Positions 3,077 to 33,946 of a DNA stretch of 34,339 nt are shown here, piece by piece. Location of the stretch: assembly GCF_946478885.1 (NCBI RefSeq), contig NZ_CAMLDX010000031.1:1-34339 (forward strand), in the 5' to 3' direction. The translations under genes and the position numbers were made by a program. How positions within the stretch are numbered: position 1 is the stretch's first letter; every line of letters begins with the position of its first letter. Source of the DNA: an uncultured Bacillus sp. (GTDB taxonomy: Bacteria; Bacillota; Bacilli; Bacillales_B; DSM-18226). The notes below the pieces were generated by a model. That model had not been told where the DNA came from. It saw only the letters and a list, made by a program, of their open reading frames with translations, and did no database searches.

Positions 3077-3107
3077 TTAAGCGGACATTTTACAAATGTC
3101 CGCTTAA
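3077..3107 (-). terminator. hairpin at the end of the efe operon, overlapping the efeU stop codon
   Basis: A perfect 14-bp inverted repeat (TTAAGCGGACATTT / AAATGTCCGCTTAA) with a 3-nt loop. The 5' arm encodes the last five residues of EfeU (LSGHL), and the stop codon begins at the loop. The following sequence on the minus strand is only moderately T-rich (TTTACATCTTTC), so termination may be partial. Confidence 0.65.
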
Positions 3108-4823
3108 GCTTTCACGATTATTTTTGCTAACCTTCTGATAAACCAAAACTGCTAAGCAAATAATGATTAATAATGCCTGTCCTGCCAAACTTTCATATGT
3201 CGGATAGAAACCGATCAATGAAATGACCGGAAGCTCGTGAATGACATGTACCGAAAGTTCATTAGTCAGTTGCAGGGTATGGACGCTTGAACCAATAATC
3301 TTAAAGGCTAAAAGATAAATAAGTATTGTCGCAGCAAAGAAAAATCGATGTATGACAATGCGTGTACTCATTTTTAACAAGATAAATGCCACTGCTCCTA
3401 AAATAACAAGGGCAACGACGATTCCTAAAATAAAATCGAACATTTCCATTTTCGGAGCAACTCCGGTATAAAACAGAATCGTTTCTGCCCCTTCCCGAAA
3501 TACCGACAAAAATGAGATAAATGCCATCGCAAAAACAGATTGTTTGGAGATTGCATTTCCCATTTGCTTTGCTAAATAGGCATTCCAGGAAGCTACACTT
3601 GATTTATTATGGAGCCAAACTCCAACACCAATCATGATCGCAGCCGCTGCCAAACCGACATATCCTTCTAACATTTCCCTTCCAGTATTTGCGCTTAATG
3701 AATGGAAAATGAACGAAAATGCAACCGCAACAACAGCGGATAGTAATACGCCGAATAGTGCTCCTCCATATATCCAACGGACCATGTGCTCCTGCTTTGA
3801 ATTTTTTAAAAAGGATACTAAAATGATGATAATCAGAATGGCTTCTAATCCTTCACGCAGCAGAATTAAAGCGGAATCCCAAAAAGTATAATGACTATCT
3901 TCCTGAAGCAATTGAAGTTCCGTTTTAAATTGTGATAATTGAGCCGTGATCCCTTCAGCATCGACCGTATCTTTTGCAAGTCCGGTAACAAGAATCGGCA
4001 TCTCGCTTTCTATCTCATTATATAAAGCTCCGTTTCGTGTAGATACCTCCATCTCAATATTCGGCCAGACTGTAATAAACTCCGTTAAAGCTTTCCCTGC
4101 CTCTTGAAAATGTTTATCAGCAATAGAGTTCAATGCCCCTTCAATCAAATCTACCAGAGTTTGTAGTGAGTAATCATCTGCTGTTTCAATAACCTCTCCA
4201 GCCAAATACTGTTCAATCGAAGCTTTAAAGGTCTCATATTGACTCGAAGCTAAGGATAAATCCGGTTCCTCCGCAGCTAACGTAATCCTTATAAAAGCTA
4301 ATTGTGTTTCAATTTGCCCATACATTCCGACATTGTGCTCTCGTACAGGCTGTTCGTATTGATTCCATTTATTATTCAACACATTGTAGGCATTTTGTAT
4401 CGTAGTGATTTCCTTTGTTTCTAAAGCCTCTTCAAACTGTTTCATGAACGGAGTGTACTTCGAAGCAAATTCTTTTCTCTTTTCTGCCTCGTTAACGGGA
4501 TTTTCCATTTTTTCCAGATGTGAAAGAGCCTTTGATAGTTGTGTTATAGCTTCAGATTTTTCTGCTTGATTCTCTGTTTTGAGAACATTTTCCAGTGCCT
4601 TATCCACAGCCTTCTTTTCTTTAGCCTTTTCCGTTTTAACCAGATCCCAATTTGACTTGAATTCATCAATCGCCTTTTGAGCTTCCGTGACATTTCCCTG
4701 TTTCGTATTGATCAAGGCATCACTTATCGAGATATACAGGTGGCTGTATGAAACTTCTGCGAATACTGGACTGGCAAGGAACAGACACACCAGGAAACTG
4801 CTAATTTGTAAAAAGCGCTTCAC
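3090..4823 (-). CDS. efeU: EfeU-like FTR1-family iron permease with long N-terminal extracellular domain
   Basis: 577 residues. A signal peptide (1-22, ending FA) precedes an approximately 290-residue helical, charged domain. From about residue 315 follows the polytopic FTR1 permease domain. Both iron-binding REXXE motifs are present: REGLE at 323-327 and REGAE at 443-447. The protein imports iron across the membrane, with EfeB and the EfeO/EfeM-type lipoprotein as partners. It is the third gene of efeO-efeB-efeU. The GTG start at 4823 lies inside the end of efeB (23-base overlap) and has its own AAAGGGAG site, pointing to translational coupling. It is longer than my recollection of the B. 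subtilis homologue YwbL (about 480 aa); the extra length is in the N-terminal part. Confidence 0.92.
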   Translation of the reverse strand: MKRFLQISSFLVCLFLASPVFAEVSYSHLYISISDALINTKQGNVTEAQKAIDEFKSNWDLVKTEKAKEKKAVDKALENVLKTENQAEKSEAITQLSKALSHLEKMENPVNEAEKRKEFASKYTPFMKQFEEALETKEITTIQNAYNVLNNKWNQYEQPVREHNVGMYGQIETQLAFIRITLAAEEPDLSLASSQYETFKASIEQYLAGEVIETADDYSLQTLVDLIEGALNSIADKHFQEAGKALTEFITVWPNIEMEVSTRNGALYNEIESEMPILVTGLAKDTVDAEGITAQLSQFKTELQLLQEDSHYTFWDSALILLREGLEAILIIIILVSFLKNSKQEHMVRWIYGGALFGVLLSAVVAVAFSFIFHSLSANTGREMLEGYVGLAAAAIMIGVGVWLHNKSSVASWNAYLAKQMGNAISKQSVFAMAFISFLSVFREGAETILFYTGVAPKMEMFDFILGIVVALVILGAVAFILLKMSTRIVIHRFFFAATILIYLLAFKIIGSSVHTLQLTNELSVHVIHELPVISLIGFYPTYESLAGQALLIIICLAVLVYQKVSKNNRESLSGHL

Positions 4824-6045
4824 CTATATAACTCCCTTTTTCTACGCCGGGGAAACAAGCAAAAACTGCACTACCCCGATGAGTAATATATTCATTAAGT
4901 TTATCTAAACGCCCTAAACTGTTTTGAATATCGATAAACTGCTGCGGATTTTTCTGAAATGAAATAAACATTAAACCAGCATCATATGCTCCTGTATTTG
5001 CAACAATTCCCGAAGTATAAGAAAATCCACGACGTAAAATCTTTTTCTCCGCCGCTCTGGCTAAGTGAACATGGGATATTTCCGGAATAATATAATCACC
5101 ATGCTCATTCTTTTCCATGACATCAAAATCATCAAATTCACTTTCTTTTCCGATTGGCGCACCGCTCTCACGATAACGTCCAAAGGTTGCATCCTGCTCC
5201 TTCAAGGACGTTCGATCCCAGGTTTCCAGGTGCATTTGAATTCTGCGGTAAATTAAATAAGTCCCTTCTGTCAGCCAGCTTTTCGATTCTCCTTTTTGAA
5301 TCCAAACAGTTGATTGGTAATCCTCTTCTGACTTCGGATTCACGGTGCCATCCTTAAATGCGAAAAGATTCCTTGGTGTCCCTCCATCCTTCGGTATCGG
5401 ATTATATCCTGCCTGTGACCACTTGATTTCCACTTTCCCGCTTGCAGCTCGGACTAAATTCCGAACAGCATGAAAAGCTACCTGAGGGTCATCGGCACAA
5501 GCCTGGATACAAATATCACCCCCAGTATAGGCTTCATCCAATTGATCTTTGGGAAAATGGGGAAGTTCCTTTAATGGCTCTGGTTTCTTGCTTTGCAGCT
5601 TCAAGACCTTGTTTTCAAAAAGTGTTGGTCCTACACCAAATGTCAAAGTCAGATTGGAAGCACCCATTCCAGCTGCTTCTCCTGTATCCTCTGGAGCAAT
5701 ATAAACATTTCCGGAAGATACCGCTGCCATATCTCCATTCATCAGACTCTCCGCAAGAGGAGTCCACATTTGAAAAAGTTCCTGTAATTCGGCTTTAGAC
5801 CGAACCAATACATTTAGCGATGCAAAATAAATGTAATGCTGTGCCGGGGTACTGATTCCGGCCTGATGCTTTCCATAAAACGGGATTGTATCCTCCTTGG
5901 AAGAACTCTCCTTCTCTGAAGGCTCAAATTCATAGCCTAATGCCTTCATCGAACCTCCGATTCCAGCTGCTCCAACTGCAACGCCCGCAGCCCCGGCAGC
6001 GGCTAATTTTAATATTTCACGCCTCGTAATTGTCTGCTCAGTCAT
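4801..6045 (-). CDS. efeB: EfeB, Tat-exported DyP-type haem peroxidase
   Basis: 414 residues. A twin-arginine signal (TRREILKLAAAGAAG, R8-R9) exports the folded protein with its cofactor. The body is a dye-decolourising peroxidase: the distal motif reads AFKDGTVNP (GxxDG type), and the proximal haem histidine lies in ISHVHLARAAEKK, followed by RRGFSY. In EfeUOB systems this enzyme oxidises ferrous iron or acts on haem at the cell surface, feeding the permease. It is the second gene, 12 bases after efeO, and its last 23 bases overlap efeU. B. subtilis names the homologue YwbN, a well-known Tat substrate. Confidence 0.94.
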   Translation of the reverse strand: MTEQTITRREILKLAAAGAAGVAVGAAGIGGSMKALGYEFEPSEKESSSKEDTIPFYGKHQAGISTPAQHYIYFASLNVLVRSKAELQELFQMWTPLAESLMNGDMAAVSSGNVYIAPEDTGEAAGMGASNLTLTFGVGPTLFENKVLKLQSKKPEPLKELPHFPKDQLDEAYTGGDICIQACADDPQVAFHAVRNLVRAASGKVEIKWSQAGYNPIPKDGGTPRNLFAFKDGTVNPKSEEDYQSTVWIQKGESKSWLTEGTYLIYRRIQMHLETWDRTSLKEQDATFGRYRESGAPIGKESEFDDFDVMEKNEHGDYIIPEISHVHLARAAEKKILRRGFSYTSGIVANTGAYDAGLMFISFQKNPQQFIDIQNSLGRLDKLNEYITHRGSAVFACFPGVEKGSYIGEALFTN

Positions 6046-6057
6046 TCTGGATCACCC

Positions 6058-6936
6058 CTATTCTAAAATAATTCCCATTTGGCTTAAAGGTTCACCAAGC
6101 TGATTGACAGCTGCTGCTAAAGCTTTCGTATTCTCTTCTGTCAATTCTTCATAAGATACGTACCCGCCTTCTGCTGTTTCATGCTCCGCTAATAATTTAT
6201 CGACTGCAGCAAATCGATTCTCTAATGTACTTACCAAATCGGCATCTTTTTCGGCAATTCGGTCTCGCAATATTTCAAATATTTTTTCCGCACCTTCAAT
6301 ATTTGCCTTAAAGTCATAGAGATCAGTATGCGAGTAAATTTCTTCTTCTCCTGTAATCTTAGATGTTGACACCTCATTTAATAAATCTACCGCTCCCGTT
6401 ATCATTAAATCAGGTTCAACATCAACTGTTTGTACTAAAGCATGAAGCTCCTTGGTATCTGTCAGGAGTTGGTTAGCAATTTCTTCATAGCCCTCAGTTG
6501 TGTTTTCGGCCCACAAGGCATACTCCAATTTATGATAACCAGTCCATTCTTCCTCCCCTTTTCCTTCTTCTTTGATATCAGCAAGACGTCCATCAATACG
6601 CGGATCTAAATCTCCGAAGCTTTCTGCGATCGGCTCGGAACGCTCAAAATACATCCGTGCTTCCGGATATAGTTTTTTCGCCGTTTCAATGTCACCAGCT
6701 TTTACAGCATTTACAAATTTTTCTGTCTCAATTAAAAAAGAATCCATTTGTTCAAGAGCAAATGCTTTATAATTATCTACTTCTTTATGAAGATCAACAG
6801 TTGCCGTTTCTTTTTTGGTTTGCTCTTGCTTATTTACACTAGAGGCCTTTTCTTCTCCGCTGCATCCGCTTAGAAGCAAAGCGCCTGTTAAAAAAGCTGC
6901 AGACAAAGTTTTTAATTGGTTTGACTTAAGTTTCAT
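6058..6936 (-). CDS. efeO: EfeO/EfeM-type iron-binding lipoprotein (M75 imelysin domain)
   Basis: 292 residues from the ATG at 6936, which has an AGAAGG site 9 nt upstream. A longer frame starting at 6972 lacks a site. The N-terminus is a lipoprotein signal with lipobox LLSGC, so the protein is anchored to the outer face of the membrane. The rest is an M75 domain with the HxxE motif in GYHKLEYALW. It lacks the cupredoxin domain of enterobacterial EfeO and so is the shorter EfeM form. It delivers iron to EfeU. First gene of the operon, directly behind a Fur-covered promoter. The homologue in B. subtilis is YwbM. Confidence 0.92.
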   Translation of the reverse strand: MKLKSNQLKTLSAAFLTGALLLSGCSGEEKASSVNKQEQTKKETATVDLHKEVDNYKAFALEQMDSFLIETEKFVNAVKAGDIETAKKLYPEARMYFERSEPIAESFGDLDPRIDGRLADIKEEGKGEEEWTGYHKLEYALWAENTTEGYEEIANQLLTDTKELHALVQTVDVEPDLMITGAVDLLNEVSTSKITGEEEIYSHTDLYDFKANIEGAEKIFEILRDRIAEKDADLVSTLENRFAAVDKLLAEHETAEGGYVSYEELTEENTKALAAAVNQLGEPLSQMGIILE

Positions 6937-6974
6937 ATGTTTGTACCTTCTTCCTGCATGTAAAATTTTCATAC

Positions 6975-7219: not shown

Positions 7220-7267
7220 ACCATCAAATCTTTCGTTTCTAAAAATGCCAATTCATAAGTCGCTCTA

Positions 7268-8251
7268 TTAAAGCGTCCAATTAATTATGAGTCCCGCATG
7301 TGTTAATCCGCCTCCAAAACCATAGATTAACACTTTATCTCCAAAAGAGAGCTTCTGCTCCTTTACTCCTCTATCAAGGGATAACGGGATTGTAGCCGCA
7401 GATGTATTTCCATAATCAACGATGCTGTATAATGTTTTCTCGAGAGGAAATCCACTTTTTTCGCAGATAGATTCAATCATTTTCAGATTCGCACTGTGGG
7501 GTACAAACCAATCTACTTCTTGTAATCGCATAGCAGCATTTTCTGCCGCTTGATGCATTCCTCTTGGAACAGTTGTCACAGCCCATTTATAAACCTCTCG
7601 ACCATTCTGTGTGATCTTTCTACTATGAATGATATCTTCCTCAAACATAGTACTGGAAATATTGGAGCAATATAGATTTTTTGCCTTTTCTCCGAAAGAT
7701 CCCATATGATATGAAAGAAAGCTTGGATTTTCTTCGTCATATTCTACGAGAACGGCTCCTGCACCATCTCCAAATAGAATACAGGTCTTTCTGTCTTTAA
7801 AATCTGTAATTTTAGAAAGAGTCTCAGCGCCAATTACGAGAATTTTTTTGTGTAAACCTGATGAGATTAGGCCATTGGCGGTATGGAGACCGTAGGCAAA
7901 TCCGGCACAGGCAGCATTTAAATCTAATGCACCAGTATTCTTGAGACCAAGCTTTGCCTGAATGAGCGATGCGGTACTGGGAGTAAGAAAATCAGGCGAA
8001 AATGTGCAAACAATGATCATGTCTATATCCTCAATAGGTTGATGATAACGATCTATTAGATTGAGAACAGCCTTGTAGCCCAAATCGCTCGTGAATTCAG
8101 AATCAGCAGCGATTCTTCGTTCTTTGATGCCCGTTCGCTGGACAATCCATTCATCGCTAGTTTCCACAAGTTTTTCCAGATCGTGATTCGTCAGTCTTTT
8201 TTCCGGGACATAAGAGCCAATTGCGGTAATACGTGCCCTTGATTGGAACAT
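7268..8251 (-). CDS. fabH: beta-ketoacyl-ACP synthase III, FabHB-like
   Basis: 327 residues from the ATG at 8251, which has AAGGAGG 7 nt upstream; a longer frame to 8293 is untranslated leader. It condenses acyl-CoA (branched in Bacillus) with malonyl-ACP to start fatty acid synthesis. The catalytic triad is complete: Cys115 (LNAACAGFAYG), His252 (VPHSANLKMI) and Asn282 (YGNTSAATIP). The N-terminus (ITAIGSYVPEKRLTN) and C-terminus (GFGGGLTHAGLII) resemble B. subtilis FabHB (YhfB), which like this gene is unlinked to other fab genes and is FapR-controlled. A FapR-like palindrome lies just upstream. It could be the second of two FabH paralogues in the genome. Confidence 0.9.
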   Translation of the reverse strand: MFQSRARITAIGSYVPEKRLTNHDLEKLVETSDEWIVQRTGIKERRIAADSEFTSDLGYKAVLNLIDRYHQPIEDIDMIIVCTFSPDFLTPSTASLIQAKLGLKNTGALDLNAACAGFAYGLHTANGLISSGLHKKILVIGAETLSKITDFKDRKTCILFGDGAGAVLVEYDEENPSFLSYHMGSFGEKAKNLYCSNISSTMFEEDIIHSRKITQNGREVYKWAVTTVPRGMHQAAENAAMRLQEVDWFVPHSANLKMIESICEKSGFPLEKTLYSIVDYGNTSAATIPLSLDRGVKEQKLSFGDKVLIYGFGGGLTHAGLIINWTL

Positions 8252-12819: not shown

Positions 12820-13905
12820 CTAACACCACCTTAATAACAAAAGCTCTGAGCTGAAACCTGGCCCAAGTGAAGTACAAAGTCCCCAATCACCAGGATTTCC
12901 TCTATGAAGAAAGCGATGCAGGACAAATAATACCGTCGCTGATGACATATTCCCGTATTCTCTTAATACCTCAAGCGACAAGTGCACCATATCAGGATGA
13001 AGGTCCAAGGAATTTACGTATGCATCCAGTACCTTTTTTCCTCCCGGATGTGCAATAAAGTGCGTGATCTTCTCCATTGTAATCTGTTGACTTTGTAAAA
13101 AGTGTGAGACATTTGGCTTCAACCATTTTTCTACTATAGACGGGATATCTTTTGAAAAAACTACAAACAGGCCGTCATTTTTTATTTCCCAGCCCATCAC
13201 GTCCAGAGAATTTCGCATGGTAATTGATTGGGTAGCAAGTATTCTTGGCAATGCCGGCATGCTGCTAATTTGACTTTCATCCACTTCGTCGCCTGCAACT
13301 AGCACACATGCCCCTCCATCGGCAAACAATGAAGTTCCAATGAGATTGCTTTTGGAACGATCATTGTACTGGAAGGTCATGCTGCACAATTCGACGCTTA
13401 CTACCAGTACCTTCGCTTTCGAATATGCCTTACAGTATTCAAACGCGCGCGATAACCCTACTGCACCACCGGCACAGCCTAGTCCCCAAACAGGGATGCG
13501 TTTTGTCCGCTCTGAAAAGGGCAGAATATTCATGATACGCGCTTCGATACTGGGTGTTGCCACACCAGTCGTCGTAATGAAAAAAATAGCTTCAATTTCT
13601 TCACAAGCTATTTCACGTTTTAAAAGCGTTTCATTGGTAAGACAGTTCATGATAGCCTCTGCCCCAAGATCAATAGCCGCCTCGATAAAGGCCTTGTTTT
13701 TTTCCTCAAAGGTATGAGGCCGTCTGTACCAGGGCATGTCTTTCACAAAATGCCGTTTCTCCACATGTCCGTTGGGAAATGCCTTTAACAGGCGTTCGAT
13801 ATCTTGAAATGATTTCGAGAAAATCTCCCGTGAAAAATTCATTACTTCCTTTTGTTCTAGAATAAACGGCGGAACCGCCTCTCCAACTGAAATAATTACT
13901 GGCAT
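12820..13905 (-). CDS. bpsA: BpsA-like type III polyketide synthase (alkylpyrone synthase)
   Basis: 361 residues from the ATG at 13905 (AGGAGAT site); the frame upstream to 13950 is leader. It is a chalcone-synthase-fold enzyme that extends long-chain acyl-CoA with malonyl-CoA units to alkylpyrones. The triad is complete: Cys144 (WGLGCAGGAVGL), His286 (FIAHPGGKKV) and Asn319 (YGNMSSATVL). Length and N-terminal wording (MPVIISVGEAVPPF) match Bacillus BpsA. It is paired with bpsB. The products are triketide pyrones of unclear function, thought to sit in the membrane. Confidence 0.93.
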   Translation of the reverse strand: MPVIISVGEAVPPFILEQKEVMNFSREIFSKSFQDIERLLKAFPNGHVEKRHFVKDMPWYRRPHTFEEKNKAFIEAAIDLGAEAIMNCLTNETLLKREIACEEIEAIFFITTTGVATPSIEARIMNILPFSERTKRIPVWGLGCAGGAVGLSRAFEYCKAYSKAKVLVVSVELCSMTFQYNDRSKSNLIGTSLFADGGACVLVAGDEVDESQISSMPALPRILATQSITMRNSLDVMGWEIKNDGLFVVFSKDIPSIVEKWLKPNVSHFLQSQQITMEKITHFIAHPGGKKVLDAYVNSLDLHPDMVHLSLEVLREYGNMSSATVLFVLHRFLHRGNPGDWGLCTSLGPGFSSELLLLRWC

Positions 13906-14021
13906 TAGTCTATCTCCTAATATTGGTAATTTATATTTTATATTACGCATAATAGGAAAAAATATACTGTTTCATATAGAGGCTTGCCATCAGAGTGCAA
14001 ATCATGAACAGTACTTACAGA

Positions 14022-20359: not shown

Positions 20360-20638
20360 TCATGATTTCTGTCGAACAATATATTGAGGACTGAAGAAAG
20401 TAATATTTTGATTCAACTGATTTTTATTCCAGTATTTAAGCGATTGCTTTTTATCATAAGTGGAAAAGCACTTCCACCATTTAAGCAAATCCATTAGAGG
20501 TTTCTCATGATAAAGCATAACGTGATATGATAGGAAAGGAGATTTTATCATTCCTGCCATCGCTCTATCTAATACCGCGTAGGATGGATGCAGCAATGGC
20601 AGAACAGCGAAAGACTTGCCCTGTGGAGGGATATACAT
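20360..20638 (-). CDS. doubtful minus-strand reading frame, up to 92 codons
   Basis: The frame ends VRQKS and includes MAGMIKSPFLSYHVMLYHEKPLMDLLKWWKCFSTYDKK, a composition that could be protein. An internal ATG in that segment may be the real start. No family is recognised. In favour: a minus-strand terminator follows about 115 bases on. Against: no strong ribosome binding site, and the far end of the frame overlaps the cobA leader. It may be a gene remnant. Confidence 0.3.
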   Translation of the reverse strand: MYIPPQGKSFAVLPLLHPSYAVLDRAMAGMIKSPFLSYHVMLYHEKPLMDLLKWWKCFSTYDKKQSLKYWNKNQLNQNITFFSPQYIVRQKS

Positions 20639-22096
20639 ATGAGAAAAGGCAAAGTGTTTTTAGTTGGAGCTGGTCCCGGCGATATTGGGCTAATTACAGT
20701 TAAAGGGCTTGAAGCCATTAAACAGGCGGATGTGATTTTATATGACCGCTTAGCCAATCCAAAGCTTCTGGACTTCTCCTCGACTGAGTGTGAATGGATT
20801 TATTGCGGCAAACTGCCAGATCGACATACATTGAGACAAAATAATATTAATGATCTTATAGTTGAAAAAGCTTTGCAAGGAAAAAGCGTGGTCCGGCTTA
20901 AAGGGGGAGATCCCGGTGTATTTGGCCGGGTCGGTGAAGAAGCCGGGGCACTCGCCCAGGCTGATATTGACTTCGAAATCATACCGGGCATTACTGCCGG
21001 CATTGCAGCCCCTCTTTATGCTGGTATTCCTGTGACCCATAGAGAATTCGGAGACACCTTTGCAGTGGTGACAGCCCACCAGCAAGCAGCGGATTCAGGA
21101 CCAAATCTTAACTGGCAGGCACTTGCCCAAGGGGTGGATACCATTGCGTTTTATATGGGAATTTCGAGTCTCCCTCAAATATGTAAAAAATTAATAAAGA
21201 ATGGTAAAGCACCGGATACACCTGTCATTTTGGTACAATGGGGAACCTTCAGCAGACAGAAAACATTAGAAGGCACGCTTTCCACCATTTCAGGCATGGC
21301 TGCAGAAAACGACTTTACGAATCCGTCCATTACTTTGGTCGGAAATATTGTATCCCTGCGCAAAAAAATGAACTGGTTTGAGAAAAAACCATTATTCGGA
21401 CGCCAGATCCTCCTGCCCCGGACAGGTACCAAGCCAAGCCATCTGGCAAAGGTTTTAACTGATCAAGGTGCGGATGTAATAGAATTTCCAAAATGGAAAA
21501 TGGAGAAAACAGCAGTGGATTTTAAAGTTTTGGAGAACCTTTCAAGCTATGAAGAGATCCTGTTTACTTCTCCGGAAAGTGTGACCGATTTCTTTCAAAT
21601 ATTATTCGAAACAGAGATTGACATCCGGACATTATCCGGCCATCTCTATGGATTATCGAAAAAAACAATTATGGCACTATGTGAAAAAGGATTGCAGGCG
21701 GAAATTACCCCCTACATTGAACCGAGAGATGAGCTGCTGGTCATTGGCGACAGCAGAATCGGAGAGCATCAATATGAATTATGCCATACCTTTATTACGA
21801 CCATGAACAGCATTGATACAAATTTTTCACCAATTATTAAGAGAATACTTGAGGAAGCGGCTCCTGATACAATCGTATTTACAAGTGCTAATTCTGTCCG
21901 AATGTTTTTTGAAGAACAGGATGTAATCGAATTGTATTCATACCGATTGCTACAGGGAATGAATGTTATCAGTATGGGTACCAAAACAACGGCAGCATTA
22001 CAGTTTTATGGAACAACACCCGATCAAACAGCCGTTAAGCCAAATGTTTCTAGTTTAATTGAAGCTATTAAGAAATGTTCTCCGAAAAGGGATTAA
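20639..22096 (+). CDS. cobA: CobA-HemD fusion: uroporphyrinogen-III C-methyltransferase / synthase
   Basis: 485 residues from the ATG at 20639 (GGAGGGATATACAT site). Residues 1 to about 245 are the SAM-dependent CobA domain: VGAGPGDIGLIT, DRLANP, LKGGDPGVFGRVGEEA, IPGITAGIAAPLYAGIPVTHR. From about 255 a HemD-type domain follows, with LPRTG, FTSPESVTDFF and VFTSANSVRMFF. The first domain makes precorrin-2 for siroheme or B12; the second would close uroporphyrinogen III, or may be vestigial. Same architecture and length as NasF of B. subtilis (nitrite reductase siroheme supply). No nas or cys genes are adjacent in the window. Confidence 0.9.
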   Translation: MRKGKVFLVGAGPGDIGLITVKGLEAIKQADVILYDRLANPKLLDFSSTECEWIYCGKLPDRHTLRQNNINDLIVEKALQGKSVVRLKGGDPGVFGRVGEEAGALAQADIDFEIIPGITAGIAAPLYAGIPVTHREFGDTFAVVTAHQQAADSGPNLNWQALAQGVDTIAFYMGISSLPQICKKLIKNGKAPDTPVILVQWGTFSRQKTLEGTLSTISGMAAENDFTNPSITLVGNIVSLRKKMNWFEKKPLFGRQILLPRTGTKPSHLAKVLTDQGADVIEFPKWKMEKTAVDFKVLENLSSYEEILFTSPESVTDFFQILFETEIDIRTLSGHLYGLSKKTIMALCEKGLQAEITPYIEPRDELLVIGDSRIGEHQYELCHTFITTMNSIDTNFSPIIKRILEEAAPDTIVFTSANSVRMFFEEQDVIELYSYRLLQGMNVISMGTKTTAALQFYGTTPDQTAVKPNVSSLIEAIKKCSPKRD

Positions 22097-26891: not shown

Positions 26892-27779
26892 TTATTTTAT
26901 AGATGCTTCATAGATGCTTTTAATAGCATCTGCCAGCTTCATATTGAATTCTTTATCTGTTTGATCGACAGCGAGCCCCTCTGTCAGGGCACGGGAGAAG
27001 CTAGCGATAACTCCATTATTACGCGCTAGAAATTCATTGGCTTCTGTCCGGCTGTAACCGCCTGACAAGGCTACCACCCGTACTACATGGGAATCCTCTA
27101 GCAGATTGAGATAGAAGTTATCTTCTGAAGGCAAGGAGAGTTTAAACATGACCTTTACCTCATTATCAAGAGAAGTTAATTGATTCTTTAATTCTTCTTT
27201 TAATATTCTTTCCGATTCTGCCTTATCTGCGCTATGAATGTCTACTTCCGGTTCAATAATTGGAACCAGCCCAGCCGCTGCAATTTGTTTAGCAATGTCA
27301 AATTGTTGTTGAACAACTTTCTTAATACCAACGGGATTGGCTTCTTTAATAACCGAGCGCATTTTTGTTCCAAAGATATGGCGTTCATTTGCCCGTTTCA
27401 ACAGATCATCCAAACCAGCAATAGACTTCATAACCTGAACTCCATCCTCAAGCCCCGCAAGTCCTTTATCGACTTTTAAGAAAGGCACAATGCCTTTCTC
27501 TTCCCAAAGAAAGTCAGCTGTATATTTCCCATCAATCATGCGATCCATTGTGTTTTCAAACAAGATTGCCCCTAATACATATCGGGAATCAAACGCAGGA
27601 CTCTTAATTATACGCGTTCTCATTTCATGAACTAAAGAAAACATTTCTTCATCAGTGGAGTATTGACCTTCACTAATACCATATGCCTTCAATGCCTTGG
27701 GAGTACTTCCGCCACTTTGGTCTAGAGCTGCGATAAAGCCTTTTCCTGTTTGGATTCGATCAAACTGCTTGTCATTCAT
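26892..27779 (-). CDS. fda: class I fructose-bisphosphate aldolase
   Basis: 295 residues, the length of the Staphylococcus-type bacterial class I enzyme. It cleaves fructose 1,6-bisphosphate to two triose phosphates through a Schiff base; the likely lysine is Lys213 (VMFKLSLPS). Other conserved blocks are [38 protein letters not shown] and [19 protein letters not shown] precedes the ATG. It is monocistronic, with a possible TATAAT about 30 bases upstream but no convincing -35. Functionally it could take over the product of FruK. Most Bacillus species also have a class II aldolase, not visible here. Confidence 0.93.
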
Positions 27780-28168: not shown

Positions 28169-28315
28169 ATGAATGCGAAGGAAAATATCTTTTTCCATCC
28201 AAATCTGGCGATGGTACGGGCAAAAAGAATGTTAAACGGCCAGGTTGATCCCCTCATTACAGCCGCAGGTCTTAAGGAAGGGATGTCTTTCTTAGATTGC
28301 ACATTAGGTCTTGCT
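28169..28315 (+). pseudogene. fragment of a YpiP-type class I SAM methyltransferase gene
   Basis: In one frame the segment reads FFHPNLAMVRAKRML, then DPLITAAGLKEGMSFLDCTLGLA. This is the block leading into the SAM-binding motif (LDCTLGLA) of a Bacillus methyltransferase family related to YpiP. Both the roughly 75 N-terminal residues and everything after GLA are gone; the open frame then runs on into unrelated AT-rich sequence. It is therefore a relic and not an intact gene. The family call is from memory. Confidence 0.65.
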
Positions 28316-28615
28316 TTTTCGTTTCTTAATATTATCAGAATAGTAATAAGGTTGCTTATAAAAATAAATGGGAAGAAGTTAGCTGCTCCGTTGATGGCCG
28401 TCTTTTTTTTCACAGCTATATTTCTATACAAAATTATTGAAAAAGATGTCCCAGTAAATAATAAAGTTACACAGGGACATCTCTCTATAAATAGTATTTT
28501 CTTTATATTAAACATTTTTAATACTTCTAATACAATGCTAAGTAAAAGAAAGTGTTACCATGAAGCTATGTTTTTAATCCCTAAACAAACGGTGTATACA
28601 GGTCCTATTCAAAAT
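28316..28615. other. AT-rich non-coding stretch after the methyltransferase relic
   Basis: Open frames run across it on both strands, but none has a ribosome binding site or recognisable protein content. It holds the terminator of the molybdoenzyme operon at 28444-28482. Confidence 0.5.
28444..28482 (-). terminator. terminator of the sigma/methyltransferase-molybdoenzyme operon
   Basis: Minus strand AGATGTCCC / GGGACATCT (9 bp) with a 21-nt loop, then TTTTTC. It lies about 130 bases past the last gene of the operon. Confidence 0.7.
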
Positions 28616-29476
28616 CTAAAACCAAGGATACTGACTCATGACTGAATAATAAAACAACATTCTGCCTGATAGTTCGCCAATAAAAACCAATACGGTAGCA
28701 ACTAAGATGTAATCGATCGCAATTCTCTTTTTGCTGGTAACCATATAAACCACCAGCGATGCTGGAACTAATAAGCTACCGAGAACACGAATCCAGTAAA
28801 AGATTGAGGTAAACGATACTGTTGCTGCTATTTGGCTTTCTGCGCCATTTGACATTATGGCAGAACTTCCGAGAGTGACGACTAAAGAGATTAGCAAAAC
28901 TGACAAATATATTCCTAATAGTTTCATAACATTTTCGTCTGATTCCTCTTGTTTTCTCTTCAAGGCAAAATAAGAGACTGTTAAAGCGCCGATTAATAGT
29001 CCTGTTAGTAGAAAGTTAACAAATGTTGTCCAATTATTCCATGATGGATGCAAATGGATTGAGAAATACACAGCTGCTGAGCTGATAATCATTATAATTC
29101 CCAGTATAGCAGTCAAAGTTCCAGCAATTTTTCTTATAGATGTATGATCTGCCTTTTTCCACCATAAATATGTCAATGCCAGTAAACAAAGATTAAAAAG
29201 TATTACCATAATGATTTCCCGGCTTAACCAGGAATGACCCGTACCAATTAAGCTTGTATAACTTTTAAATGGATTATTTAAATGGAACAGCGAAGCCAGT
29301 GTACCAATTATAGAAATACCAATAGCCATAAAAATCGGCTTTTTCATTACCTGCTTTCCAGTTGTATCCATGAATCGAGGCCTCAGCCATTCCAGTAAAA
29401 CAACCGCTATCGTGATGCCGACAGCCCACTGACTTAACACTGTGAATATTACCAATGGAATTTCATACTCACCCAT
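28616..29476 (-). CDS. DmsC-type membrane anchor subunit
   Basis: 286 residues with about eight hydrophobic helices, matching the DmsC/NrfD-like quinol-oxidising anchor of molybdopterin reductases. The opening IPLVIFTVLSQWAVGITIAVVLLEW, the mid-protein FHLNNPFKSYTSLIGTGHSWLSREI and the GRMLFYYSVM ending are typical of the DmsC family. It takes electrons from menaquinol and passes them to the iron-sulphur subunit. It is the last gene of the operon, 21 bases after the B subunit, and has no cofactor of its own. Confidence 0.88.
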   Translation of the reverse strand: MGEYEIPLVIFTVLSQWAVGITIAVVLLEWLRPRFMDTTGKQVMKKPIFMAIGISIIGTLASLFHLNNPFKSYTSLIGTGHSWLSREIIMVILFNLCLLALTYLWWKKADHTSIRKIAGTLTAILGIIMIISSAAVYFSIHLHPSWNNWTTFVNFLLTGLLIGALTVSYFALKRKQEESDENVMKLLGIYLSVLLISLVVTLGSSAIMSNGAESQIAATVSFTSIFYWIRVLGSLLVPASLVVYMVTSKKRIAIDYILVATVLVFIGELSGRMLFYYSVMSQYPWF

Positions 29477-29497: not shown

Positions 29498-30043
29498 TTA
29501 ATGCGCTGCAATAATGACCACGTTTGGCTTACTTATTTTATGACTTGGCAGCTTGTACATTCTTTCCACCACCTCAATATCATCTCCATACTCAGCACGT
29601 AATTCACCAATTTTGCCGAATTTTAGTACATGTCCCGGGCATAATGCAACACATTTTGGCTGTAGACCTTGATCTATTAAATCCGCGCACATATCACACT
29701 TGCTGATTTTTTTCTCGACTGGATCATATTGCGGTGCGGCATAGGGACATGCCATTAAACAGGAACGGCATCCCAGACATTTATCATGATCCTGGATCAC
29801 AATACCATCCTCCCGCTTTGTATAGGCAGAAACAGGACATACCTTCAAACACTGAGGTTCATTACAATGGTTACATGACATGGAGAGAAACTCCAATTTG
29901 TCAGGCTCATCTGTTCTAAACTCTCTAACTCTACGCCAATTTACCCCTTCCGCTGTTTTGTTTTCCGACTTGCATACAACAGCGCACGATTTACATCCAT
30001 AGCAATCATTCATATTAATAACGAATCCATATTGGACTGACAT
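29498..30043 (-). CDS. DmsB-type iron-sulphur electron-transfer subunit
   Basis: 181 residues with four ferredoxin-like cysteine clusters: CYGCKSCAVVC, CNHCNEPQCLKVC, CLGCRSCLMAC and CDMC...CVALC. This is the DmsB/PsrB pattern for four Fe-S clusters that wire the anchor to the catalytic subunit. There is no signal peptide; such subunits are carried out with the Tat-bearing A subunit. It starts 3 bases after the A subunit stop. The family does not reveal the substrate. Confidence 0.93.
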   Translation of the reverse strand: MSVQYGFVINMNDCYGCKSCAVVCKSENKTAEGVNWRRVREFRTDEPDKLEFLSMSCNHCNEPQCLKVCPVSAYTKREDGIVIQDHDKCLGCRSCLMACPYAAPQYDPVEKKISKCDMCADLIDQGLQPKCVALCPGHVLKFGKIGELRAEYGDDIEVVERMYKLPSHKISKPNVVIIAAH

Positions 30044-30046
30044 GCT

Positions 30047-32395
30047 TTAGTCCTCCTTTCTCACCTCAACAAGTGTATTATTAATGGTGGTTCCATTTCC
30101 CAGAACCTCAACCGTATCATTTGTAACATGGCTGCTGCTGCCCCCCTGCTGCTCCCACCAGCCATTTTGTATACCAACAATCCCCTCTTTTATATGGGCC
30201 GTGACTAATGCTTTAACAGCATGTTTGCCTCTATCATTAAATACCACAGCTTTATCTCCATTCACGATATTTCGTGCTTTTGCATCATTTGGATGAATAA
30301 GGACTTCCGGTTCGCTTTGATGCACTTCATTAATCCATCCCAGCGTGCTAAAGCTGGAATGAATGCTGCGTGCCATCTTATATTGCACAGCCATTAAAGG
30401 ATATTTTCTCAGTAACTCATTGGACTTATTGGTAATACATTCATTCGCACGAATATATTTGACTATGGGACTAAATTCTTTTTCTTTCCAACCCTCTACA
30501 AAGAAGTGTGCTTTTCCGGTCGAAGTTTTAAATTGACCATCTTTAAAAGGAATGTAAGGTATCGGGACCGGCTTAACGGGTCCTTGTTTTAATTGTTCAA
30601 TTGTGATTCCGGTACCTTTAAGGCATGCCTTGATATGCTCTTCTATCGGTTTATCAAATAGCTCACCAAATCCAAACCGTTTAGCGATTTGGGCAAAAAT
30701 CCAAAAGTCAGGCTTTGCCTCGCCCGGTGGTTCAACCGCTTTTTCCTTAAGCTGAACATAGTGGCTGCGTGAACCGGCCATTAAGCTTGTATATTCAAAT
30801 ACCGTCGTAACAGGTAAAACTAAATCAGCATATAAAGCAGTTGAAGTCATCAGGCTGTCGGAGACGACAACGAACGGTACTTTTTCTAATGCCTTTCGCA
30901 CCATATTTGTATTGGGTAATTGAGTCATTGGACTGGTTGTCATGATATACCAGAATCCAATTTCCGTTGGATCACCCTTCACGATCGATTCAGCTAATTT
31001 TGCAATTGGAATATTTTCAACTTTTTCTGTAGTTTTAGCTGATGCAACAGGCGGATTGATTTGTAAGAATTGCGTGACTCCCCCTGCATCACAAACACCA
31101 GCTCCAGCCTTACCAATGTTGCCAGTAATTAAAGCAAGATAAAATTGACTTGCAGCAACATAGGTCCCATACTCTGTCCTTTGAGCTCCCGACATATTTT
31201 GGATAATCATTGCCGGTTTATTAATTGCATATTCACGCGCTAAGCGAATAATTGTTCCTTTTGGTACATCGGTTTCTTTCTCAATCTCTTCTAAAGTTAA
31301 TTTTTTTGCTTCATCTTTGATAAGATCAAAGACAGTTCGATAGTTATTAGGTAAGGTTGTTTCATCTTCACTTAGTACTGGCTGAATGTTTGCCTCATCA
31401 TGGCGGACCAGTCCATTTCGTTTTAGATCGTATACCAGATAGGAATCCGGATCGTCAGCGTCACCGCGAACGAGTTCGCCTTTCTCATCCACTAAATAGA
31501 TTGCACCTGTATGATTTAATAAAAATGGACGATCAATTAAATTTTCTTGAACAATAACCTGTAACATCCCCAGAGCAAGTGCTGTATCAGTACTTGGAGT
31601 AATTGGAATCCATTCATCAGCCCTGGCTGCCGTTTCACTGAAACGAGGATCAATGACAACTAATTTTGCACCATTTCTCATCGCTGCTTCATATTCTTTA
31701 AAATAGGCCTGCATGGTTACTGCAGGATTATTCCCCCAGCAGATAATATATTTACTATCCCGAATGGTATCTCGGGTATCAACATAACGAAGTCCAACAA
31801 TTGGGGTCATTGCAGCCGTAACCGCAGAACAGCATAGGGAACCCTCTGGATGGGTTGCGCCGCCTAAATAGCTGAATAGAGCCCCGGCCATACTGTTATG
31901 TATAGAATCCATATTTCCGGATGCTGTCTGAAGTAATATGCCTTTATTTCCTATCTTCTTTTTTGTTTCTTTAATATTTTTTTCTATTAAATCAAGAGCC
32001 TCATCCCATGAAATTTCTTTAAAATCACCTGAGCCTTTTTTCCCTGTACGCAATAATGGTTGTTTAAGCCGTTCTTTATGATTTACCCACTGTGTACGGC
32101 TTACTCCGCGTAAACAACCTGTTACATTAAAGCCTTCACTAGTTTCAACCTTCTCAATTTTTCCGTCTTTAACAAAAGCAGTAAGATTACAATGCAAGCA
32201 TTCCATTGAACAACTGGATCGGAAAGTTTCATAATTATCAATCTCTGCACCGAGAACCTTTGAAGGATGGTCAACTGTATCCTTAACAGCAAGATAACCA
32301 CCGCCTCCAACAACAGCAGCACCCACTGTTCCGGTTACCTTTAAAAAATTTCTTCGGTTTATCTTTGTTTCCATTAAATTTTTTTTATTAGACAT
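30047..32395 (-). CDS. DMSO-reductase-family molybdopterin oxidoreductase, catalytic A subunit
   Basis: 782 residues. A Tat signal (INRRNFLKVTG, R14-R15) sends it outside. A [4Fe-4S] site uses Cys62, Cys66, Cys69 and Cys94. The molybdopterin-binding body includes WGNNPAVT, VIDPRFSETAARADEWIPITPSTDTALALGM, and a C-terminal dinucleotide-binding domain (LIHPNDAKARNIVNGDKAVVFNDRG). With B and C it forms a DmsABC-type respiratory complex. At the position where DmsA carries its serine molybdenum ligand I read LCCSAV (Cys188-Cys189). This suggests cysteine ligation, as in polysulphide, thiosulphate or arsenate reductases, so dimethyl sulphoxide is not a safe substrate. AAAGGGGGG precedes the ATG. 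Confidence 0.9.
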   Translation of the reverse strand: MSNKKNLMETKINRRNFLKVTGTVGAAVVGGGGYLAVKDTVDHPSKVLGAEIDNYETFRSSCSMECLHCNLTAFVKDGKIEKVETSEGFNVTGCLRGVSRTQWVNHKERLKQPLLRTGKKGSGDFKEISWDEALDLIEKNIKETKKKIGNKGILLQTASGNMDSIHNSMAGALFSYLGGATHPEGSLCCSAVTAAMTPIVGLRYVDTRDTIRDSKYIICWGNNPAVTMQAYFKEYEAAMRNGAKLVVIDPRFSETAARADEWIPITPSTDTALALGMLQVIVQENLIDRPFLLNHTGAIYLVDEKGELVRGDADDPDSYLVYDLKRNGLVRHDEANIQPVLSEDETTLPNNYRTVFDLIKDEAKKLTLEEIEKETDVPKGTIIRLAREYAINKPAMIIQNMSGAQRTEYGTYVAASQFYLALITGNIGKAGAGVCDAGGVTQFLQINPPVASAKTTEKVENIPIAKLAESIVKGDPTEIGFWYIMTTSPMTQLPNTNMVRKALEKVPFVVVSDSLMTSTALYADLVLPVTTVFEYTSLMAGSRSHYVQLKEKAVEPPGEAKPDFWIFAQIAKRFGFGELFDKPIEEHIKACLKGTGITIEQLKQGPVKPVPIPYIPFKDGQFKTSTGKAHFFVEGWKEKEFSPIVKYIRANECITNKSNELLRKYPLMAVQYKMARSIHSSFSTLGWINEVHQSEPEVLIHPNDAKARNIVNGDKAVVFNDRGKHAVKALVTAHIKEGIVGIQNGWWEQQGGSSSHVTNDTVEVLGNGTTINNTLVEVRKED

Positions 32396-32408
32396 GTCAT
32401 TCCCCCCT

Positions 32409-33665
32409 TTAGTACTGTCTCACACAATGTGCGAATAATAACGGGACTTCGACCCGATTATTAACATGAATCGTTTCAGCAAACTTAAAGCGATATTTTT
32501 CATTTTCTTCAATCTGCAGAACCTTAAAACCTGAATCTTCAAGCCACCTGCTCATTTGGATCAGCTTGAATCCCGACCAAAAGTCATGAGATTCTTTGAA
32601 TTTCCAATTAAATTTCGTGTAAGCAAGATCAGCAATAATCAGGTGCCCTCCAGGCGTAACTACTTTCGCTATTTTTTCGAGAACAGCCTTTGGATCATAT
32701 ATATGGTGCAATACCATACAGCAAAATCCAACGTCAAATGCTTCAGTTGGAAAGGAAGAATCTAAGGTAATATCCGCCAATATAGGATAAATATTAAACA
32801 ACTGCTTCTCCGAGATCTTTTTCGATAAAATTTTCAACATTTCAGAGGAATGGTCAACTGCGTACACCTTCTTAACATGAGGGCTTAATGTAATGGTTAA
32901 GTTGCCTAAACCACAGCCAATATCAGCTGCTACTTGATGCTTATCTAATTTGGCCGTTGAAATTAAGTAATCATTTAACCCTTCGGGATATGATTCTTTA
33001 CGAAAGGAGGCAAACCTTTCGTTGAAGCCATTAAAAAAGTCACGTGATTTATAGGAAACCTTTTCTTCCAGATTGATAGGAAAATCTAAAATATCAAACC
33101 AGTAAACTAATTTTTTCATTTCCCTTTCTGAAATATTTTCTTTAGTCAAACCTGGAACCATCATCTTAATTAGTTCGTGAATGAGCGCCTTTCTTGCCCT
33201 TTTTAAAAGGGAGGCAAATGCCGCTTCACTAATTCCCAATAGATTTGCACTTTCCTTGTAGCTGAGCTGATTTAAATCAAAAAAGCAGATTGCCTGCTGA
33301 TGCTCGCTTTTTAATAGATTGATTGCTGTTTGAATCACCTTCTTGATCTCTTTTGATTCAATAGACTGCAGCGGATCATTTTCGGATAAAAGCTTTTCCG
33401 AAAAATGTACAGCTTCAAGATTAATGTTTGCACCCGATTTTTGTATTTTCCTCCAATGATCAATACATATATTACGAGCAACTGTTAACAGCCAGGCCTT
33501 TACCTTTCCTTTATCCTGCTGTTTCATTACATGAAGATGATCGCATGCCCTGACAAACGTTTCCTGAGTGATATCTTGTGCTACATCTGCATTTTCAACT
33601 CGTGACAGTACATAATGAAAGATGTCCTGATAGTGAATATGATACAGGTCTTCTATCATATTCAT
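32409..33665 (-). CDS. ECF sigma factor fused to a SAM-dependent methyltransferase
   Basis: About 418 residues from the ATG at 33665; an ATG at 33674 sits only 3 nt after AAGGAGG. Numbering below is from 33674. Sigma region 2 spans about 10-77 (DVAQDITQETFVRACDHL, WLLTVARNICIDHWRK). Region 4 spans about 118-170 (LSYKESANLLGISEAAFASLLKRARKAL). After a linker, a class I methyltransferase runs from about 205: motif I ADIGCGLGNLT (250-260), acidic Asp274 (YAVDHSS), FCCMVLHHIYDP, and PGGHLIIADL. It is the first gene of the operon, 13 bases before the molybdoenzyme. No anti-sigma gene is seen; the methyltransferase may act as a sensor or as an enzyme of the same pathway. Confidence 0.88.
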   Translation of the reverse strand: MNMIEDLYHIHYQDIFHYVLSRVENADVAQDITQETFVRACDHLHVMKQQDKGKVKAWLLTVARNICIDHWRKIQKSGANINLEAVHFSEKLLSENDPLQSIESKEIKKVIQTAINLLKSEHQQAICFFDLNQLSYKESANLLGISEAAFASLLKRARKALIHELIKMMVPGLTKENISEREMKKLVYWFDILDFPINLEEKVSYKSRDFFNGFNERFASFRKESYPEGLNDYLISTAKLDKHQVAADIGCGLGNLTITLSPHVKKVYAVDHSSEMLKILSKKISEKQLFNIYPILADITLDSSFPTEAFDVGFCCMVLHHIYDPKAVLEKIAKVVTPGGHLIIADLAYTKFNWKFKESHDFWSGFKLIQMSRWLEDSGFKVLQIEENEKYRFKFAETIHVNNRVEVPLLFAHCVRQY

Positions 33666-33895
33666 TTGCTCCATTCACCTCCTTAAGCAATAGTGATATT
33701 CGTGTTTTTGAGATACAATACATGATTACACTTCAAATAGTAACGTGAATTAGTTCATTTGTAATACATCTTTCATCTCTTTCATATACATGTAACAATG
33801 GTGCGACAAATTATAGAAAACTTTTTTTTATGCGACGGAAAATCAATTTTTTATCGTTATTTATATAGCGAATAATAATTAGGAAAATAACAAAT
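33666..33895. other. control region of the sigma/methyltransferase operon
   Basis: AT-rich, no gene. On the minus strand TATAAT occurs near 33816 without a good -35. An AAC...CGTC pair around 33835-33866 is loosely like an ECF promoter, but the 18-base gap is long. No confident promoter can be placed. Confidence 0.4.
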
Positions 33896-33946
33896 AAAAA
33901 AGAAGCTCACCTTGCATGCTTGCTCTGCTGTGATCGCTTCTTTTTT
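33896..33946. terminator. bidirectional terminator
   Basis: AAAAAAGAAGC / GCTTCTTTTTT (11 bp) with an inner TCAC/GTGA stem. It works in either direction and separates the operon from the right-hand segment. Confidence 0.8.

Follow-up and report, generated by a model that had tools for sequence, protein, structure and literature searches.

An ECF sigma factor–methyltransferase fusion at the head of a molybdoenzyme operon, a candidate SAM/SAH-responsive switch

The window (the whole stretch of DNA analysed, 34,339 nucleotides from an uncultured Bacillus sp.) carries a gene for an ECF-type sigma factor with a C-terminal methyltransferase (MT) domain. The gene stands at the head of a molybdoenzyme operon, a reading proposed earlier from the sequence alone and supported here. 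The fusion is a real, conserved but rare family. We propose, with about even chances of being right, that sensor and switch are united in this one protein: its MT domain would bind SAM or SAH and thereby gate the ECF sigma part, which would transcribe its own reductase operon. The features concerned were located as follows.

33833..33858 (-), candidate ECF-type promoter AACGA-N14-YNYGTCG, ~160 bases upstream of the fusion gene
32409..33674 (-), sigma–methyltransferase fusion gene, 421 amino acids, one open reading frame (ORF) with no internal stop
33441..33647 (-), sigma region 2, residues 10-78 (Pfam PF04542, Sigma70_r2, 50.9 bits, cut-off 24)
33183..33338 (-), sigma region 4, residues 113-164 (Pfam PF08281, Sigma70_r4_2, 34.1 bits, cut-off 25.7)
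32412..33137 (-), MT domain with its N-terminal helices, residues 180-421
32568..32585 (-), D-F-W-S-G-F motif of the D-x-W-x-G-F type, residues 364-369
30047..32395 (-), molybdopterin reductase A subunit (DmsA/PsrA-like) with a TAT-type start and Cys188-Cys189
29498..30043 (-), Fe-S B subunit (DmsB-like)
28616..29476 (-), membrane anchor subunit (DmsC family; PF04976, 99.9 bits, above the cut-off of 22.3)

The uninterrupted frame joining sigma regions 2 and 4 to a methyltransferase, on which the sequence-only reading was built, was confirmed over 421 amino acids with the Pfam models above their cut-offs. The ECF assignment of regions 2 and 4 follows from the sigma70-ECF superfamily model TIGR02937 (78.1 bits, cut-off 42.9), while the cut-off of the SigM subfamily (TIGR02950) was missed (118 bits vs 147.95). 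About 250 residues extend past sigma region 4, and their structure was predicted mostly at high confidence. This extension was assigned to the class I SAM methyltransferases by the Pfam cut-off (Methyltransf_11 at residues 251-347, 72.2 bits, cut-off 21.2), by motif I, and by its fold. Motif I (ADIGCGLG), the post-I acid (D274), and PGG could all be read in the window's fusion as claimed and were kept across 24 fusions: D251, G253, G257, D274, G342, and G343 were invariant, and G255 was found in 23 of 24. Judged from this residue conservation, the SAM pocket of the METHYLTRANSFERASE part is intact.

A single-sequence search retrieved 18 full-length fusion relatives (P0002-P0019, 31-72% identity), and a profile search added five more (P0212-P0216, 27-32% identity). 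The search for this architecture that had been suggested earlier thus returned it at full length in 23 clusters besides the window, at 24-72% identity in a multiple alignment, giving 24 with the window. Within the first alignment, region 4 was recognized in 19 of 19 members and region 2 in 18 of 19 (Pfam E up to 0.01). P0217 (228 amino acids, sigma only, on a 792-base contig) also matched the profile and was excluded as a likely fragment. The possibility that two genes had been joined by an assembly error or a frameshift, raised earlier as a potential refutation, was not borne out and is practically negligible, given the same architecture in 23 other clusters and uninterrupted frames at three genome loci.

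The family is nevertheless thinly spread. The fusion was carried by two of 193 genomes of the family of Robertmurraya siralis, and wider, overlapping samples at the levels of order (that of the Schinkia genome), class, and family yielded no further fusion (1 of 397, 1 of 398, and 1 of 7 genomes, respectively); only nine or four candidates were scored per genome in the scans of 193, 397, and 398 genomes. An NCBI source was found for only one of the 23 clusters (P0018, Bacillus). Viral carriage was rejected, as the 35 matching viral loci match only within residues 1-182, the sigma part. Plasmid and phage carriage were likewise rejected, as none of the 373 matching plasmid records and none of the 18 phage records covered at least 80% of the fusion query. 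A fourth hit of the locus scan (L004, Anaerolineales) matched only the MT part (residues 242-350) and was dropped.

Control of ECF sigma factors by C-terminal extensions is established, with at least 26 groups of non-canonical, extension-bearing ECF sigmas described in the available part of the survey of these factors (PMC8999054). The extensions described there are SnoaL-like, Cys-rich, and anti-sigma-like (zinc-finger, membrane), and the only methyltransferase mentioned in that part is encoded by a gene neighbouring ECF122 (PMC8999054). The window's protein resembles these factors in its sigma2–sigma4 core, its C-terminal regulatory candidate, and the lack of a visible adjacent anti-sigma gene, but differs from those in the same excerpt in that its extension is a full class I methyltransferase. 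No described sigma–methyltransferase fusion was found in the literature covered, which consisted mostly of titles and abstract starts with most subscription papers outside its scope, and this absence is weak evidence. What is known is ECF sigmas with control extensions; what appears to be new, judging by sequence, is an MT as the candidate built-in control domain.

The earlier observation that no anti-sigma gene is adjacent held for the 665 bases upstream of the fusion, where no ORF of at least 60 amino acids lies between 33674 and the window end; the next upstream gene lies beyond the window. No anti-sigma gene was seen by eye at any of four fusion loci, comprising the window, L001 (Schinkia azotoformans), L002 (Bacillaceae MAG UBA7792), and L003 (Robertmurraya siralis). 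A riboswitch or other RNA element in the window was rejected, as there were 0 Rfam matches at the gathering threshold.

The fusion and the reductase appear to travel together, as the sequence-only reading had asked to be checked. In all four fusion loci with readable DNA, the genes follow one another on the same strand in the order fusion, A, B, and C, and the 13-base gap (32396-32408) between the fusion stop and the A-subunit ATG of the window is as claimed. Among the 193 genomes of one family, the fusion and the reductase A subunit were both present in two genomes and only one of them in none (A subunit at E up to 1e-100; at most nine and five candidates scored per genome). In an order-level sample (387 genomes), A subunits of 77-78% identity occurred in two genomes, both fusion-bearing, and remote A subunits (31-34% identity) in a third. 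Remote reductase relatives were recorded for genomes G589 (30%) and G226 (31-34%), and neither appeared among the fusion matches of the samples of 397 and 398 genomes, where genomes lacking a match mostly go unnamed.

Indirect evidence extends this neighbourhood to distant relatives. For nine of the 23 fusion clusters, the longest contig is exactly as long as that of one of 119 reductase clusters (the best 120 of 210, minus the window's own), as compared with 0 of 72 control proteins. The matches include P0212 (25%) and P0216 (28%), whose putative reductases are at 57% and 56%. The distances between fusions and those between reductases correlated with r 0.74 over 13 pairs and r 0.48 over the 10 closer pairs, values reached by 19 and 29 of 5000 permutations, respectively; shared ancestry alone would also yield such a correlation. 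As a separate observation, the pair P0012/P0156 (longest contigs 44979) apparently places a Bacillaceae-type fusion beside a reductase only 60% identical to the window's, possibly a swapped or a second reductase.

The reductase shares its A-B-C subunit order and its domains with the DmsABC/PsrABC molybdoenzymes. Its A and B subunits fell below the DmsA and DmsB NCBIfam cut-offs (342.8 vs 777.7 bits for DmsA/YnfE, TIGR02166), and it has a Cys at the position of PsrA Cys173. The A subunit carries the molybdopterin domains and a start that is TAT-type by eye, the Pfam TAT match being below its cut-off (20.2 vs 22.7 bits). At the SLC of PsrA its sequence is GSLCC, and by counting along the alignment Cys188 falls on PsrA Cys173; we take the latter to be a molybdenum ligand, so that Cys188-Cys189 would be at the metal-ligand position. 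The earlier label of a DMSO-reductase-type enzyme therefore stands for the molybdoenzyme family, but it does not warrant a substrate name, because the A subunit fails the DmsA cut-off and has Cys at this position. The substrate may be sulfur compounds or oxyanions, which is a guess. In DmsA, the molybdenum ligand is Ser, according to the available part of a preprint on Salmonella DmsA paralogs, for which sulfate reductase activity is reported with the Ser ligand kept (PMC12636705). A sulfate substrate by analogy was not adopted, as Ser is kept in those paralogs, in contrast to GSLCC in the reductase relative P0163, and as P0163 could not be tied to the locus tags given for them.

Reductase relatives were found at 58-63% identity, many of which have enterobacterial names among the matches listed. 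Since only one of the 23 fusion clusters came from NCBI, these sequences suggest that the enzyme works without the fusion elsewhere; the enterobacterial gene neighbourhoods lie outside this view. P0163 had no plasmid match at 1e-100, and a distant blastn search for enterobacterial reductase neighbourhoods returned no E. coli match.

The MT domain appears akin to methyltransferases fused to DNA-binding regulators. The top non-fusion matches were P0020 (excisionase-like HTH and MT) and P0021-P0025 (ArsR-type HTH and MT) in a single-sequence search restricted to proteins of 0.55-1.75 times the query length, in which short lone MTs could not appear. The D-x-W-x-G-F motif near the end was present in 24 of 24 fusions, in four of the six HTH/ArsR–MT regulators, and in none of 39 lone MTs (single-sequence search matches so classed from the Pfam columns). 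The four regulators are P0020, P0021, P0022, and P0024, the last three being near-copies, and P0023 and P0025 carry H-x-H-L-G-F at the same place. When 70 MT domains were placed on a tree, the sigma fusions grouped together (83/79), as did the other regulator-fused MTs (90/77), and the side that holds both groups also holds seven lone MTs, most of them on long branches; this sequence-based grouping of sigma–MT and regulator–MT proteins has moderate support.

The top-ranked plasmid match was a Leptospira ArsR–MT protein that shares this motif type with the fusion (D-L-W-L-G-F) in a SahR-like context, as its gene lies directly before ahcY and is followed by ahcY, a small Fe-S protein gene, and metH. 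The sensor domain of SahR is reportedly methylase-related, as attributed to Novichkov et al. in 2014. SahR is described in the consulted part of its source as an SAH-responsive ArsR-family regulator with the core regulon ahcY, metH, metF, and metK (PMC4239095). Like SahR/SamR, the SAM-cycle ArsR-family regulators, the fusion joins a DNA-binding part to an MT-type domain; unlike SahR, it has sigma domains in place of an ArsR domain (no ArsR model in its Pfam list) and heads reductase genes at four of four loci, not SAM-cycle genes. From the shared motif, the tree, and the SahR-like context of the Leptospira protein, a SAM/SAH-sensing role of the MT domain is our best guess by analogy. Of the two functions suggested in the sequence-only reading, gating of the sigma is thus favoured over methylation of the reductase's substrate, because the best non-fusion MT matches are DNA-binding regulators and one relative has a SahR-like context.

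Methylation remains the main competitor, as the residues kept in the MT domain serve catalysis as well as binding. The protein may be a bifunctional enzyme and regulator whose MT domain methylates a small molecule linked to the reductase, either its product or a substrate that is toxic, and whose sigma part turns on the operon, an explanation that we regard as possible but doubtful. Its catalytic-type residues are intact, with His323-His324, Asp364, Trp366, Gly368, and Phe369 invariant in 24 of 24 fusions, and its nearest structural matches include many methyltransferases of small molecules whose structures contain SAH or SAM. A precedent exists in ArsRM of Brevundimonas, an ArsR–MT fusion heading a met operon that is reported, in the part of the paper available, to methylate arsenite and to bind its own promoter (PMC10190100). 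ArsRM is comparable to the window's protein as a regulator–MT fusion at an operon head, and differs from it in its ArsR domain, its met operon, and the arsenite methylation reported in the same part (PMC10190100).

Two observations speak against such an enzyme: the TAT-type start (by eye) of the A subunit implies that the substrate would meet the reductase outside the cytoplasm, and the enterobacterial reductase relatives (58-63%) gave no sign of a fusion within the protein matches, their gene neighbourhoods being outside view. Classical ArsM methyltransferases have a conserved cysteine set, and no Cys is invariant in the MT part over the 24 fusions (21 of 24 at best); an ArsM-type arsenite methyltransferase was rejected on this ground. 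The missing set is a weak point against a bifunctional protein, as ArsRM is reported, in the same limited source, to bind arsenite without it (PMC10190100). A macromolecular target (RNA polymerase, the sigma itself, or a reductase subunit), the methylation of which would control transcription or enzyme assembly, is very unlikely. It is hinted at by the protein N-terminal methyltransferases NTMT1/NRMT1 among the fold matches, but small-molecule methyltransferases rank above them and among them, at Z values within 2 of theirs.

We return to the proposed switch and the promoter that it needs. The general ECF promoter consensus has the form AAC-N15..19-CGTC. This form occurred within 250 bases upstream of the fusion in three of the four loci (the window, L001, and L002), a result of at least three of four reached by only one of 3000 dinucleotide-shuffle sets; no AAC element was present within 250 bases upstream of the fusion in L003. 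The looser AAC-N15..19-[CT]GT[CA] was also found in three of four loci, but at least three of four were reached in 122 of 3000 shuffle sets. Two further forms, AACGA-N14-YNYGTCG and AAC-N17..18-YGTCG (three of these three loci and 0 of 2000 shuffle sets, with none in L003), are post hoc, and only AAC-N15..19-CGTC follows the consensus. The CGTC match of L002 is at -243, and a site resembling those of the other two loci is at -180; distances upstream in L001 and L002 take the aligned start as zero and not the start of the longer, annotated-style ORF.

Two other tests gave no such signal. An unconstrained search for a shared 26-base motif in the three upstream regions was not significant, as the 12 invariant columns that it returned at most were also obtained in 151 of 200 shuffles; the site it ranked best differs from the promoter candidate. 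The promoter motif was not enriched genome-wide in three genomes (21, 10, and 17 matches vs 41, 42, and 47 for a reversed control), although in G001 and G002 one of the genomic matches is the site upstream of the fusion. Taken as sequence evidence, self-transcription from an upstream ECF-type site has moderate support. A GAAGC/GCTTC inverted repeat with a T run was noticed by eye near 33905-33945, with the promoter candidate coming after it; a terminator scan of the window did not list this repeat.

Under the proposed switch, the N-terminal sigma would direct RNA polymerase to the ECF-type promoter upstream of its own gene and would thereby transcribe itself and the downstream reductase genes. 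The C-terminal MT domain would stand in for an anti-sigma factor: SAM or SAH would bind to it, perhaps along with another small molecule, and the sigma would be released or restrained according to its ligand state. If SahR is a guide, the operon would be turned on when SAH rises relative to SAM, and the sulfur- or oxyanion-reducing enzyme would be tied to the methionine/SAM cycle. Promoter use, gating, the ligand, and the direction of the response are what we infer here.

The state of the sigma part bears on this proposal. The sequence-only reading had named a lack of conserved core-binding residues as a refutation; the core is not evenly kept over the family, region 2.3-2.4 being decayed in three lineages that do not include the window's protein. 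The acidic region 2.2 motif for core binding is of the DAED type in the part of the survey consulted (PMC8999054). By eye, this motif reads V-A-Q-D in the window's protein and contains A-E-D in P0006, P0019, and P0212-P0216. Region 2.1-2.2 was 47-71% identical over the groups of fusion sequences compared.

Sigma region 2.3-2.4 has a role in reading the -10 element. In three lineages (P0006, P0017, and the clade P0013/P0014/P0016/P0018), this region was only 23-25% identical to nearby intact relatives, region boundaries being approximate in this comparison. In the same lineages, identity remained at 47-58% over region 2.1-2.2, at 68-71% over region 4, and at 51-70% over three MT segments. The stretch linking regions 2 and 4 was low both there (18-38%) and in intact groups (22-44%). 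The intact groups had region 2.3-2.4 at 58 and 72%, the latter value making it the best-kept part in the window's group of five. The decayed lineages sit at three separate places on the MT tree. One of their members, P0018, is the Robertmurraya protein, whose frame is intact in the named genome and whose upstream region is the one without the AAC element. The decayed segment corresponds to window residues 55-80 (33435-33512, -), and the decay is not in the window's protein.

The sigma part could be on its way out, with another promoter driving the operon and the protein surviving for its MT function. The loss of region 2.3-2.4 in three lineages and the Robertmurraya locus without an AAC element agree with this view, but the retention of regions 2.1-2.2 and 4 in the same lineages rules against general decay, and region 2.3-2.4 is the best-kept part in the window's group; we consider this view unlikely. 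Because one part was lost while the rest was kept, these sequences suggest a changed use of the sigma and not plain decay. A plain sigma model leaves the decay of the -10-reading part unexplained. It could be explained, in a reading that we hold to be rather unlikely, if in the three lineages the sigma had given up -10 recognition while retaining core binding through region 2.1-2.2 and -35 reading through region 4, and had changed from a promoter-melting sigma to an activator tethered to RNA polymerase beside another sigma under methyl-donor control, the family as a whole being a SAM/SAH-sensing switch.

ECF sigmas with built-in sensors are few, and an MT sensor, if true, would make methylation state a direct input to sigma choice. 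The joining of sigma, ArsR, and excisionase-like HTH parts to one kind of MT suggests a reusable sensory module. As the operon is small and present in named Bacillaceae genomes, ligand binding, the promoter, and gating are directly testable, and in the lineages whose -10-reading region is decayed, nature itself provides a test of how much of a sigma factor activation requires.

Several other genes were noted. In L002, a second, separate sigma-70-like ORF (7259-7774, -) was seen by eye just past the C-subunit gene. In the window, an ORF at 28169-28645 (+) overlaps the end of the C-subunit gene; it has a class I methyltransferase-like start (AGLKEGMSFLDCTLGLA, by eye), after which the similarity is lost, and with no Pfam match it is possibly a gene remnant. 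FTR1 iron permease, Dyp-type peroxidase, and imelysin genes are consecutive at 3090-6972 (-), forming an EfeUOB-like iron uptake set, and a type III polyketide synthase-like (chalcone synthase) gene lies at 12820-13950 (-). A fusion of tetrapyrrole methylase and uroporphyrinogen-III synthase of the CobA-HemD type is encoded at 20588-22096 (+). The product of 26892-27779 (-) is short and resembles class I fructose-bisphosphate aldolase, with about half of the Pfam model covered by the match.
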